DNA of 41,281 bases from Prochlorococcaceae cyanobacterium ETNP18_MAG_14. GTDB lineage: Bacteria > Cyanobacteriota > Cyanobacteriia > PCC-6307 > Cyanobiaceae. A program made the translations under genes and the position numbers. Positions 13,029-29,792 of the stretch are shown piece by piece; the stretch's first letter is position 1; each line of letters opens with the position of its first letter. The notes beneath the pieces are model-generated. The model had not been told where the DNA came from. It made no database searches and saw only the letters and a list, made by a program, of their open reading frames with translations. The stretch spans positions 1-41,281 of the forward strand of contig JASLWC010000008.1 of NCBI GenBank assembly GCA_030741055.1, in the 5' to 3' direction.

Positions 13029-15089
13029 TTGATGGCCAGCAGTAGTTCGCCAGCCATCATCGAAAGCAAGCCACCTGAAGGTGGCGATCAACCGCCTGAG
13101 CGATCCAGTTGGTGGCAACTCATCTATCTCTGGTGGGCAGAATTCAGCCTGCAAACCAAGTTGCTGGCCATCGCCACACTGGTTGTGAGCCTGATGATGA
13201 CGGGCATCACCTTCTTCGTCCTCAACAGCATCCAGAAGGATGCAGTGATGAACGACACCCGCTACGCCAGAGATCTAGGCCTGCTGCTTTCAGGCAACGT
13301 AAATGAGCTTGTAGCCCAAAAACGTGACAGAGAACTAGCGACTGTTGCCGAACAATTCTGGCGCTCACGCAGTCTTCGCTACATCTTCTTCTCTGACCCA
13401 GAGGGCTTGGTCTATTTAGGAATCCCCATTAGCGCCCCGCCGATTAGCGGCAATAGCGAACTACAGCTCAACCATCATCTGGAGTTACCAACAGAGCTGC
13501 CTAAACGTCCTGAGAACACGTTGGTTCGTCAGCACCTCACACCTCAAGGTCAACTCACCGATGTCTTCGTGCCGCTGCTTTGGAAGGGGGAATATCTAGG
13601 GACACTGGCGCTAGGAGTAAACCCCAATGAAACTGCCCTAGCCAGTGCGGCTCTCACCAGGAAGGTAACCATTGTTGTCTTCATTTCGATCTGGGTGCTT
13701 GTAATTCTCGGCGCCGTCTTCAATGCTCTGACCATCACCAGACCTGTAAAAGAGCTTTTGCGCGGGGTAAGGGCAATTGCCTCCGGCAATTTCGAAGCTC
13801 GAATCGCATTGCCAGTAGGCGGGGAGCTTGGAGAACTACTAAATGGCTTCAATGCCATGGCATCACAACTAGAGGCCTATGACGCAGCAAATATTGAAGA
13901 GCTCACTGCTGCCCAAGTCAAGCAACAGTCGCTTATTGCCACGATGGCTGATGGCGCATTACTACTCGACGAGCTTGGCCAAATTGTGCTAGCGAACCCA
14001 ACAGCGCGTCGGCTATTTCGCTGGGAGGGCCGAAATCTTGAGGGCCAGGAACTGCTCAATGAATTGCCGGAAATAATCGCTAATGAACTACATGAACCAC
14101 TCCAATCACTACTCTGCAATGCCAGCGAAAGCTATGACCTGCGTTGCAGCCTTGAAGAACCAGCACGCACACTTCGCATCGTGCTTCAGTCAGTGCGAGA
14201 TCAAAGCAAAGAGACCATTAAAGGCATCGCAATTACCGTGCAGGACCTAACTAGAGAAGTAGAGCTGAATGCAGCTCAAAGTAGATTCATCAGCAACGTC
14301 TCGCATGAACTAAGAACTCCGTTATTTAACATCAAGAGCTACGTAGAAACACTCCACGATCTCGGCGATCAACTCAGCGAAGAACAAAAAAAAGAATTTC
14401 TAGGTATTGCCAATGACGAAACTGATAGGCTCACCCGATTAGTCAATGATGTACTCGACCTTTCACGATTAGAATCCGGACGATCAGTACATTTCGAGCC
14501 AATAGATCTGCGCCCCGCCATAGAGCAGACCATGCGCAACTATCGACTCAATGCAGATGATAAGCAGGTTCATCTTGAACTCAATATGGACGATCTGCTG
14601 CCATCAATCCTTGGCAATTGGGACCTACTACTGCAGGTTCTAGATAATTTAATTGGCAATGGAATTAAATTCAATCGCACTGGAGGCACCTTGATAGTGC
14701 GAGCATATACATGGCCCGATACCTGCAAGATGGCTCCAGCTGAATCCAATAATTCAGCGCCTTATTGTGAACTTGTCTCACCACTTCCAAGGCTTCGTGT
14801 AGAGATAGCAGACAATGGGTCAGGCATCAATGCAAACGATCAACAACATATCTTCGAACGCTTCTATCGGGTGGAAAATACTGTGCATACGGAAGTTGGC
14901 ACTGGCCTAGGGCTTTCAATCGTGCGCGGTATCATCGAAAAACATAGCAGCACAATACGCATGGCTAGCGAGCCAGAACTAGGCACAACCTTCTGGTTCG
15001 ATCTACCTCTTGAACAAGCCGATGCAGACGAACTTATGCTTCAATCAGAGCGAAAAATTCGTCAACAGGAAATGGGCTTGGAAGTCTGA
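13029..15089 (+). CDS. nblS: Sensor histidine kinase, NblS/DspA(Hik33)/Ycf26 type
   Basis: Two TM regions, HAMP (TRPVKELLRGVRAIASGNFEARI), PAS (IATMADGALLLDELGQIVLANPTARRLF), HisKA (FISNVSHELRTPLFNIKSYVETL), HATPase (NLIGNGIKFNRTGG, GTGLGLSIVRGIIEKH). Confidence 0.88.
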   Translation: MMASSSSPAIIESKPPEGGDQPPERSSWWQLIYLWWAEFSLQTKLLAIATLVVSLMMTGITFFVLNSIQKDAVMNDTRYARDLGLLLSGNVNELVAQKRDRELATVAEQFWRSRSLRYIFFSDPEGLVYLGIPISAPPISGNSELQLNHHLELPTELPKRPENTLVRQHLTPQGQLTDVFVPLLWKGEYLGTLALGVNPNETALASAALTRKVTIVVFISIWVLVILGAVFNALTITRPVKELLRGVRAIASGNFEARIALPVGGELGELLNGFNAMASQLEAYDAANIEELTAAQVKQQSLIATMADGALLLDELGQIVLANPTARRLFRWEGRNLEGQELLNELPEIIANELHEPLQSLLCNASESYDLRCSLEEPARTLRIVLQSVRDQSKETIKGIAITVQDLTREVELNAAQSRFISNVSHELRTPLFNIKSYVETLHDLGDQLSEEQKKEFLGIANDETDRLTRLVNDVLDLSRLESGRSVHFEPIDLRPAIEQTMRNYRLNADDKQVHLELNMDDLLPSILGNWDLLLQVLDNLIGNGIKFNRTGGTLIVRAYTWPDTCKMAPAESNNSAPYCELVSPLPRLRVEIADNGSGINANDQQHIFERFYRVENTVHTEVGTGLGLSIVRGIIEKHSSTIRMASEPELGTTFWFDLPLEQADADELMLQSERKIRQQEMGLEV

Positions 15090-15143
15090 TTCAATATTCC
15101 GTGTGAATTAATCATCCGGATTTACATCCTGAGCAAACCTGAA

Positions 15144-16646
15144 TCAATCAGGGCGATCTTCACTGGGAATGCGATGGGGAGCACCACTAAATATCTGCTC
15201 AAAATTGGAGAACGAGTCCTTAATCTGAGGCCCTTTATCTGTAATAACATACTCGCGTATCCTCTTGTCATGCCAAGAGCCTCGCATCTTGAATACATTC
15301 ACCGCTCTTGCCATCTCGCCGCGAATTTCAACATACTGAAGCAGCAGGATAGTATCAGTGATAGTAGAAATATGGGAATCAGTAATCGAGTGACTACCCA
15401 TAAACTCTTCGGCAGTATTTGTGAAGAAGCCCGCTATTTCTTCTTGTTTTGCATAACCAGTAACTCCGATCACAAACTGCCTGAAGGCGTTGAGGCTCAC
15501 CCCACGCGCCAAAGCCGAAAGTGAATCAATAGCCAGCCTAGATGGCTTGAAATCAACAATCCCCGACTTAATTATCTGAAGATGATCCTCTAGACCAGTC
15601 GACTCAGGATAAGCGCAAATAATTTTCAGCAACCCTTCCCTTTCCATCTCTTCAAAATCAATCCCCCAACTGGTGGCATTACGAAGCAATTGAGCTCGCG
15701 ACTCCTCATAAGCAAAAAGAATCGCGCGTTCCTTATTTCGGAAAGCATCCTCAATGAACTTCGATACCAAAAGGGTCTTACCAGTTCCCGTAGCACCAGT
15801 AACAAGAATAATCGAATCTTTGAAGAAACCTCCTCCACACATTTCATCTAGATGTGGCACTCCTGAACTTATTCGCACATTGGAGGAGCGCTGGGTAAGT
15901 TGCATTGCACCCAATGGGAATACACTAATTCCGTGAGTACCCATGGTGAATGGAAACTCACCTTTCATGTGAGTTGTGCCACGCAGCTTGAGGATCTCAA
16001 CCGTACGCCGACGTTTCTCTGCCTCAAGAACATTGCGTAGGATGACAACATTATCGGAGACAAATTCCTCAACGCCATAACGAGCAATTGGGCCATATTC
16101 ATCGATACGCTCTGTGGTCATAACAGTGGTGACGCCAATCTCCTTAAGACGAGCAATTAAACGAAAAATCTCTCTACGCACCACAGAAACAGCATCATAT
16201 TGCTGAAAAACTGCTGTAATTGAATCAATTGAAACTCTTTTCGCCTTATACTTAACTATGGCGTAATTAATCCTTTCAATTAGCCCTGAAAGATCAAAGC
16301 TTCCTGCAACATCCTGCCCATCAGGATCAGGTGAAGCATCAAGTATAAACAATTTATCTTGATCCACCATCTCCTGAAGGTTCCAGCCAAAACTGGCGGA
16401 ATTGCGAAGAATATCCATTGGAGACTCTTCAAAAGTTACGAATATTCCCGGCTCATCAAACTGTGTAATGCCGTTATGCAAAAAGTGAAGCGAGAAGACA
16501 GTCTTGCCGGTGCCAGAGGTGCCGCTGAACAGCGTACTTCGCCCCGTTGGCAAGCCACCATGGCAGATATCATCAAAGCCTTCAATCCCTGTAGGAAGCT
16601 TCTGCACTTGCATCTGAGAGGGACCACCTGTACTGGAGAACTGCAT
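15144..16646 (-). CDS. kaiC: Circadian clock ATPase KaiC (C-terminal tail shortened)
   Basis: Two RecA-like domains with SGTSGTGKT and TGATGTGKT Walker A motifs; phosphosite region GSHSITDSHISTITDTILLLQYVEIRGEM. Ends ...NFEQIFSGAPHRIPSEDRPD*. Confidence 0.97.
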   Translation of the reverse strand: MQFSSTGGPSQMQVQKLPTGIEGFDDICHGGLPTGRSTLFSGTSGTGKTVFSLHFLHNGITQFDEPGIFVTFEESPMDILRNSASFGWNLQEMVDQDKLFILDASPDPDGQDVAGSFDLSGLIERINYAIVKYKAKRVSIDSITAVFQQYDAVSVVRREIFRLIARLKEIGVTTVMTTERIDEYGPIARYGVEEFVSDNVVILRNVLEAEKRRRTVEILKLRGTTHMKGEFPFTMGTHGISVFPLGAMQLTQRSSNVRISSGVPHLDEMCGGGFFKDSIILVTGATGTGKTLLVSKFIEDAFRNKERAILFAYEESRAQLLRNATSWGIDFEEMEREGLLKIICAYPESTGLEDHLQIIKSGIVDFKPSRLAIDSLSALARGVSLNAFRQFVIGVTGYAKQEEIAGFFTNTAEEFMGSHSITDSHISTITDTILLLQYVEIRGEMARAVNVFKMRGSWHDKRIREYVITDKGPQIKDSFSNFEQIFSGAPHRIPSEDRPD

Positions 16647-16712: not shown

Positions 16713-17087
16713 TTAAGAATCTGATGATTCAATGTCATCTTCTGCCAACGCATCCAAGAACGATGCATCTAGGGTGCCCCCCTCAAGGTTGCCCTCGGAG
16801 ATCTCGTCATAGAGGAGGTCAAGACCAATTAAGACCCTTTCACGATCAGAGAGATCACCAATGATCCGCCGAACCGGTGGCGGCAGGATCTTGGCCAGAG
16901 TTGGAGTGGCCAGAATCTTGTCTTCCTCTGCAAGCTGAGGATTCTTGAGTACGTCAATCACTTTCAGCGCATAAACGCCACGGAACTCGTTCTCAAGGAT
17001 GTTGCGTAGGGTATTCAAAGCTCGCATCGAGTTAGTGGTATTCCCTGCCACGTACAACTTGAGGATGTATGTCTTGCGTGGGCTCAT
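16713..17087 (-). CDS. kaiB: Circadian clock protein KaiB with acidic C-terminal extension
   Basis: [95 protein letters not shown] is near-identical to canonical KaiB. Confidence 0.97.
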
Positions 17088-17420
17088 GATGAAGCCTCCG
17101 AGGCATCTTTTAATTCAGAATTGATTGATGCTGAAGAGAAGGGAGCACCTACTGGAACCGAATCTCGATAAATCTCACAGGTTTGAACCATCACATCAAT
17201 GTAGTGCGAGGCGATAGTCCTGCAGAGAATCGTTCATTTGCACTTCTAACAGGGCTACTGCCAAGAAAGCGTCGATGAAATTCACCTGACATCTCCCCAG
17301 CTTTAATGATCGACAGATCAAAAAAGAAATACTTGAAACCGACTGGGCCATTCGCCGTTTCAAGGTTCTATTCAAATTAAAATCTTGACGAAAGGTGCTC
17401 AGAAGCATGATGATTGTTGG
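17084..17420 (-). pseudogene. kaiA: kaiA relic (C-terminal domain fragments in more than one frame)
   Basis: Minus-strand fragments: IIMLLSTFRQDFNLNRTLK; KLGRCQVNFIDAFLAVALLEVQMNDSLQDYRLAL (same frame); then, shifted, YIDVMVQTCEIYRDSVP ... ending at TGA overlapping the kaiB ATG. These track the KaiA C-terminal pattern (VLSYFSPNSNLNQSID ... KVVEIHMELMDEFAKKLRVEGRSEDILLDYRLTLIDVIAHLCEMYRRSIP). Confidence 0.85.
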
Positions 17421-17519: not shown

Positions 17520-17951
17520 ATGGCCGATAAACCCGCTGCAAAGCCAAAAGCCGTTGCCAAGCCAGAGGCCGCTGAAAAGGCGAAGCCCGCTTTATCTACA
17601 GCCAAAGACCAGAGCGATTCATACGCCATCGTTGAGGCATCTGGCCAGCAGTTTTGGTTGCAAGCAAACCGCTACTACGACATCGACCGTCTTCATGCCG
17701 ACGTTGATGACACCGTCACCCTTGAAAACGTTCTACTGGTGAAGGAAGGCAAGAAGGACGCCACTGTTGGCCAGCCCTTCGTTAAAGGCGCGAGCGTGGA
17801 GCTCAAGGTGATGGCCCACCGTCGTGGACCCAAACTGATCATCTACAAAATGCGCCCAAAGAAAAAGACTCGGCGCAAAAATGGACACCGCCAGGAACTC
17901 ACACGAGTGATGGTTCAATCCATTTCAGTAGACGGCAAAGCCATCAGCTAA
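17520..17951 (+). CDS. rplU: Ribosomal protein bL21 with Ala/Lys/Pro-rich N-terminal extension
   Basis: SYAIVEASGQQFWLQANRYYDIDRL ... KVMAHRRGPKLIIYKMRPKKKTRRKNGHRQELTRV. Confidence 0.95.
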   Translation: MADKPAAKPKAVAKPEAAEKAKPALSTAKDQSDSYAIVEASGQQFWLQANRYYDIDRLHADVDDTVTLENVLLVKEGKKDATVGQPFVKGASVELKVMAHRRGPKLIIYKMRPKKKTRRKNGHRQELTRVMVQSISVDGKAIS

Positions 17952-29720: not shown

Positions 29721-29792
29721 GGGCGATTAGCTCAGAGGTAGAGCACTACCTTGACACGGTAGGAGTCACTGGTTCGATTCCAGTATCGCCCA
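29721..29792 (+). tRNA. tRNA-Val (GAC)
   Basis: GGGCGATTAGCTCAGAGGTAGAGCACTACCTTGACACGGTAGGAGTCACTGGTTCGATTCCAGTATCGCCCA folds as a cloverleaf; anticodon GAC; GGTTCGATTCC T-arm. Confidence 0.97.

Follow-up and report, generated by a model that had tools for sequence, protein, structure and literature searches.

The kaiC gene analysed here raises the question of what becomes of the KaiA-binding tail of KaiC in a lineage whose kaiA is broken, and of what the DNA directly behind its stop codon is. We analysed a window, meaning the whole stretch of 41,281 nucleotides from Prochlorococcaceae cyanobacterium ETNP18_MAG_14, a deep-branching Prochlorococcus, in which kaiC ends 12 amino acids early (features in Table 1). 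Apart from its end, the encoded protein has the makeup of a KaiC1-type kinase. The KaiC ATPase domain PF06745 matches in 2 stretches (E = 3e-117), giving two RecA-like domains, and residues 10-498 align with residues 14-502 of Synechococcus elongatus KaiC. In a full-length alignment with solved KaiC structures, the phosphorylation sites Ser431/Thr432 and Thr426 are present (SHSITDSHISTITD) and the A-loop (488-497) is retained. The protein ends at position 504. Nothing in it corresponds to S. elongatus residues 505-519, so that most of the KaiA-binding tail at the C-terminus (residues about 500-519) is gone. Canonical KaiC1 of marine Synechococcus, Cyanobium and S. elongatus shares the two domains, the phosphorylation sites and the tail register, but its tail (...DERSELSRIxRGV...) is intact and binds KaiA (structures 1SUY and 5C5E). 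The body of the window KaiC is under strong conservation (dN about 0.024, dS 1-2.7).

Table 1. Features of the kai locus in the window and the evidence for each
Feature	Position	Strand	Description and evidence
Sensor histidine kinase, NblS-like	13029..15089	+	Convergent with kaiC; HAMP-PAS-HisKA-HATPase; 18 nt separate its end from the old kaiC stop
Original stop TAA (putative)	15108..15110	-	Same end column as the most frequent intact tails
Decayed KaiA-binding tail remnant (very probable), FRFAQDVNPDD	15111..15143	-	Profile score, shuffles, nucleotide identity to G002, codon-position pattern
13-nt block ATTGATTCAGGTT	15136..15148	-	Identical to the original kaiC stop region of sister L003 (G071); possible copied segment carrying the TGA
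In-frame TGA	15144..15146	-	Leu505 position (S. elongatus numbering); Leu in 75/75 kaiA-bearing loci
kaiC	15144..16646	-	500 aa; C-terminus SGAPHRIPSEDRPD; ORF and translation
A-loop Gln (CAG)	15195..15197	-	Aligns with Arg488; G002 and the sister clade have Arg here
kaiB, intact	16713..17087	-	ORF list, domain search
kaiA remnant, C-terminal part in two frames	17096..17285	-	VNFIDAFLAVALLEVQMNDSLQDYRLAL and a 35-residue second-frame stretch; tblastn
rplU-like gene adjoining the kaiA remnant	17520..17951	+	ORF; synteny

The reading frame of kaiC continues behind its stop. A longer C-terminal reading of KaiC, FEQIFSGAPHRIPSEDRPD, is followed by the TGA at 15146..15144, and the codons behind it are TTC AGG TTT GCT CAG GAT GTA AAT CCG GAT GAT, then TAA. 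An earlier note on this DNA had taken the TGA for a nonsense codon and the peptide FRFAQDVNPDD, closed by a TAA at 15110..15108, for the lost tail; its coordinates and reading are exact. We searched the region between kaiC and the kinase gene for a terminator or promoter and found none, and an Rfam search of the window returned nothing at kaiC. The sole Rfam match in the window is a tRNA gene at 29721-29792 on the plus strand.

We traced KaiC in 300 genomes of the family and in a public genome collection, which yielded 130 distinct KaiC genes. A full tail is present in all 75 loci with intact kaiA, and Leu505, Arg507 and Ile508 (S. elongatus numbering) are invariant among them, so that the TGA does fall, as had been proposed, on the Leu of the SELSR motif. 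The nearest kaiA-bearing relative found, the genome G002, encodes a KaiC 94% identical to that of the window, with the FERIFSGAP A-loop region that is also seen in the LLIV sister genomes, and an intact KaiA of 296 residues. In contrast to the window, both kaiA and the KaiC tail (SGAPSRIVGDERSELSRIIEGVEPQS) are intact in G002, which carries a sense codon, TTG, at the site of the TGA; the same stop in a close relative with intact kaiA, which would have told against a nonsense truncation, is therefore absent. The genome G002 has 13 phycobilisome-domain matches, compared to 2 in the kaiA-less genomes tested. This content fits the AMZ-II/III lineages, which have been described in a survey as basal Prochlorococcus with phycobilisomes (PMC11559063), and G002 is probably of that type. 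No clock KaiC match was obtained in the searched same-genus genomes G098 and G120.

To measure the resemblance of the post-stop peptide to these tails, we used a position profile built from the 75 kaiA-bearing KaiC tails. In fixed register FRFAQDVNPDD scored 9.8, whereas control 33-nt fragments from the 3′ flanks of other loci had a mean of -21.9 (sd 6.0) and none of 11,856 reached that score; base shuffles of the post-stop sequence gave p of about 2e-5. The distal half, AQDVNPDD, was distinct by itself (p about 5e-5), while the three residues adjoining the stop, FRF, were not (p = 0.07). At the nucleotide level, the remnant and the G002 tail are identical at 20 of 36 positions including the stop codon (permutation p = 1.4e-4). 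Counting the remnant, the tail would have 26 residues with the old stop at residue 27, which is the commonest length (40/75 kaiA-bearing loci). Between the old stop and the end of the kinase gene lie 18 nt, the spacing also found in MIT0701 if the later TGA of MIT0701 is its old stop, and the best global alignment of the window with MIT0701 is near gapless. The gapless match with conserved length that the earlier note had drawn against the S. elongatus tail is thus borne out in register, with the same end column, and the resemblance to kaiA-bearing tails goes far beyond chance.

The gene for the partner of this tail is likewise broken. The kaiA remnant lies between kaiB and the adjoining gene on the plus strand, which we take to be rplU from the usual kaiABC synteny. 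The position of rplU in this synteny is also stated in PMC8113500. By tblastn the remnant matched the G002 KaiA with E = 2e-8 and several KaiAs with E = 8e-7, bearing out the claim that tail loss stands next to a dead kaiA. No PF07688 match was found in the window's genome (G000; 79% complete, with the syntenic kaiA site present). The intact kaiA of a canonical KaiABC oscillator is thus missing, and the gene content, kaiB and kaiC without kaiA, is that of a reduced KaiBC timer. MIT0701 and G071 (loci L002 and L003) carry longer kaiA remnants between rplU and kaiB, interrupted by TGA and TAG and found on the kaiBC strand with tblastn E values of 6e-16 and 5e-10. Since remnants in two frames or interrupted by stops occur in the window, MIT0701 and G071, neither kaiA nor the KaiC segment that docks KaiA is functional any longer in this genus. 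An earlier report of kaiA remnants in MIT9303/MIT9313 was contested by PMC8113500, which describes a reverse-strand ORF without KaiA homology in this lineage and denies a kaiA pseudogene. This ORF is probably spurious, and the remnants found here lend support to the earlier view of a pseudogene.

These results indicate that the 33 bases behind the TGA are very probably what is left of a decaying KaiA-binding tail, which an in-frame stop severed in a lineage with a broken kaiA, as far as sequence can tell. Changes in the KaiC body relative to G002 (dN 0.025, dS 2.7) fall almost all at third positions (0.05/0.02/0.49 per codon at positions 1/2/3). In contrast, mismatches in the 11 remnant codons number 7/4/4 at positions 1/2/3, which in so short a segment amounts to no third-position bias, and sites that are otherwise invariant are altered, with Leu505 and Ile508 lost and Gly/Ser511 replaced by Asp. 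The segment therefore has the marks of a nonsense-truncated one, with a sense codon and intact tail in G002 and constraint lost behind the stop. Because third-position bias is missing behind the stop while the KaiC body is strongly conserved, the sequence pattern is that of lost constraint in a decaying remnant and not of a used extension.

A programmed or leaky stop, through which some KaiC would still be tailed and the amount of KaiA-responsive KaiC regulated, would agree with a frame that runs on uninterrupted until the usual end of the tail. This is hard to reconcile with the absence of any kaiA to bind the tail, with the altered residues just described, or with sister genomes in which the stop is another one and the sequence behind it is frameshifted or dissimilar, and no structured RNA was found behind the stop, where the fold is unremarkable (z = -0.46). 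An extension conserved at the protein level was not found, and read-through, rejected on the lost profile fit at invariant sites and the neutral codon-position pattern, is the least credible of the explanations considered. Hardly more credible is a TGA created by an assembly or base-calling error. In its favour, the assembly is a draft of 140 contigs with 78.8% completeness, and a search for a second genome of the species found none. Against it, decay extends beyond the TGA to several tail positions that are invariant elsewhere, a single miscalled base could not produce the neutral pattern, and the sister genomes are truncated too, including G071, which is a single-contig assembly.

A different challenge, which we consider unlikely though a good deal less so than the former two, comes from the bases around the TGA. 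The 13-nt block ATTGATTCAGGTT, which includes the TGA, is the longest word common to the window and the original stop region of L003, a length reached by 0 of 1500 dinucleotide shuffles, and the window has 11 nt in common with MIT0701. The TGA could accordingly be the original stop of kaiC, an in-frame deletion having taken the tail, with the DNA behind it intergenic and tail-like by chance. Such a history needs a deletion of ~36 nt and a compensating insertion of ~36 nt, because the distance to the adjacent gene has not changed. It also stands against the near-gapless MIT0701 alignment and would require AQDVNPDD and its stop to match the distal tail (p = 5e-5) by coincidence. A decaying remnant remains the preferred reading, and it would be kept if a short copied block had replaced about 13 bases in place and brought in the TGA. 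Copying of this kind would explain both the 13-nt identity and the poor match of the three stop-adjacent residues to the ancestral tail. The earlier note had proposed a single TTA to TGA change, which is possible, given that TTA occurs at this site in the kaiA-bearing locus L047; on the other side, the TTG of G002, the nearest intact relative, would need two changes. The identity of the block, TGA included, with the original stop region of the sister makes a point-mutation origin uncertain, and the sequence suggests that the stop may have been copied in rather than made by one point mutation.

The sister clade, MIT0701 and G071 (MIT9313-like, LLIV), resembles the window in belonging to the same genus, in its kaiA remnant, in a nonsense loss of the tail just behind the A-loop and in the position of the old stop. 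It differs in that its KaiC C-termini, SGAPHRISNDDRA in MIT0701 and SGAPHRITDDERA in G071, are closed by TAA at Glu504, one codon earlier than in the window, and in that Arg488 is kept and the remnant is more eroded, with a one-base shift in MIT0701. The profile recognised the sister remnants weakly (L003, p = 0.06; MIT0701, p = 0.005 after the one-base shift). Since the two KaiC stop codons differ, the tails of the window and its sisters were, most simply, closed independently, as judged from the sequences. The kaiA-less KaiCs of L002, L003 and L129 keep Arg488, whereas nearly all other kaiA-less KaiCs have Gln. Arg488 and a truncated tail are combined in MIT0701 and the MIT9313-like G071.

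Tail loss is also seen in other kaiA-less lineages. On a KaiC tree built with tail and A-loop excluded, the minimum number of changes is at least 7 for the truncated tail, 3 for position 488 and 2 for kaiA presence. With phylogenetic correction, kaiA presence and tail state offer only 1-2 independent losses or pairs, too few for a p value; with kaiA loss mapped only twice on this tree, the link between the two losses is not statistically independent. In a tree of eight concatenated proteins, G002 falls beside the window's genus (97/98), both within the Prochlorococcus branch, and a single clade of all kaiA-less genomes is disfavoured (AU p = 0.027). The G002 loci L004/L156, with intact kaiABC, thus stand beside the MIT9313-like genus, a hint that kaiA may have been lost more than once; in published phylogenies AMZ lineages of this kind come out as basal, which is also where PMC11559063 puts AMZ-II/III.

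In four other kaiA-less lineages (L005, L018, L048 and L059), too, KaiC terminates at the column of Glu504 immediately after the A-loop, possibly a hot spot or a boundary of selection. The tail profile recognised no remnant behind the stops of L018, L048, L059, L122, L010 and L151, and that of L005 was marginal (p = 0.016). L011 and L041 are kaiA-less with a full-length tail that keeps Arg507-Ile508 (ISRIKK and TTRIIK), and could be intermediates of tail decay. Most other kaiA-less Prochlorococcus (e.g., L120, L125, L073, L134 and L149) carry a new tail motif, hydrophobic-P-G-V-F-K-x-I (PGVFK). Over 36 kaiA-less loci its F is conserved in 36, K in 35 and G in 34. Conservation of the motif while it is encoded by varied synonymous codons suggests, at the sequence level, that this tail gained a new function after kaiA loss. 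We give about an even chance to the proposal that the tail met two fates once kaiA was lost: repeated cutting behind the A-loop that left a readable fossil, in the LLIV/AMZ-I-like branch and several others, or rebuilding in place to the selected hydrophobic-P-G-V-F-K-x-I motif, which would serve another partner or an internal KaiC switch.

In the mechanism we propose, the disappearance of KaiA would have left the tail without a partner and unselected, so that a stop codon could persist at the Leu505 position and the remainder drift, while the KaiC body, by its sequence, stayed under strong selection. The KaiC peptide in 5C5E starts at residue 500 and has 20 residues; because 15 of these 20 KaiA-bound residues are missing in the window KaiC, the shortened protein would neither bind nor respond to KaiA. 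Glu487, Arg488 and Thr495 keep the A-loop buried, and R488A KaiC phosphorylates without KaiA (PMC8538168). The change of Arg to Gln at 488 in kaiA-less KaiC, the KaiA independence of MED4 KaiC and the lost conservation of KaiA contacts have been reported (PMC5520375, Schmelling 2017), and the rhythm of MED4 KaiC is non-self-sustaining (PMC6070526). By analogy with the S. elongatus R488A and MED4 data, the window KaiC, with Gln488 and no tail, probably autophosphorylates without KaiA, and KaiC and KaiB would probably form a timer driven by light and not a free-running oscillator, that is, a KaiA-independent KaiBC timer of the MED4 kind.

With the MED4-type KaiC of kaiA-less Prochlorococcus (PMC5520375, PMC6070526) the window shares a non-functional kaiA, Gln in place of Arg488, lost conservation of KaiA contacts and the retention of kaiB and kaiC. 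The tails differ: in HL-type and many LL lineages they have kept all or nearly all of their length and carry a conserved PGVFK, whereas that of the window is cut by a stop with its remnant readable. The hourglass-like, KaiA-independent mode put forward for this KaiC in the earlier note would accordingly belong with Prochlorococcus timers already published (PMC6070526, PMC5520375). Degradation of KaiA-contacting residues where KaiA is missing has been published as well, and the nonsense remnant and the repeated truncation appear to be the new detail. The remnant had been thought undescribed: the literature searched, which covered part of the key primary papers so that an earlier mention is possible, holds no description of it or of repeated truncation, but the truncation itself is not unique, as MIT0701, MIT9313 and other kaiA-less lineages are truncated near the same site.

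Together, these observations offer a sequence-level record of the decay of a circadian oscillator: kaiA and the KaiC peptide to which its product docks are eroding jointly, selection on KaiC itself remains strong, and sister lineages show different stop codons for the same tail loss. With Arg488 still present in the sister clade despite its missing tail, the order of kaiA decay, tail loss and the Arg488Gln change can be read. The reading predicts that adding KaiA would not rescue these KaiCs, which bears on the idea that they work in an hourglass timer.
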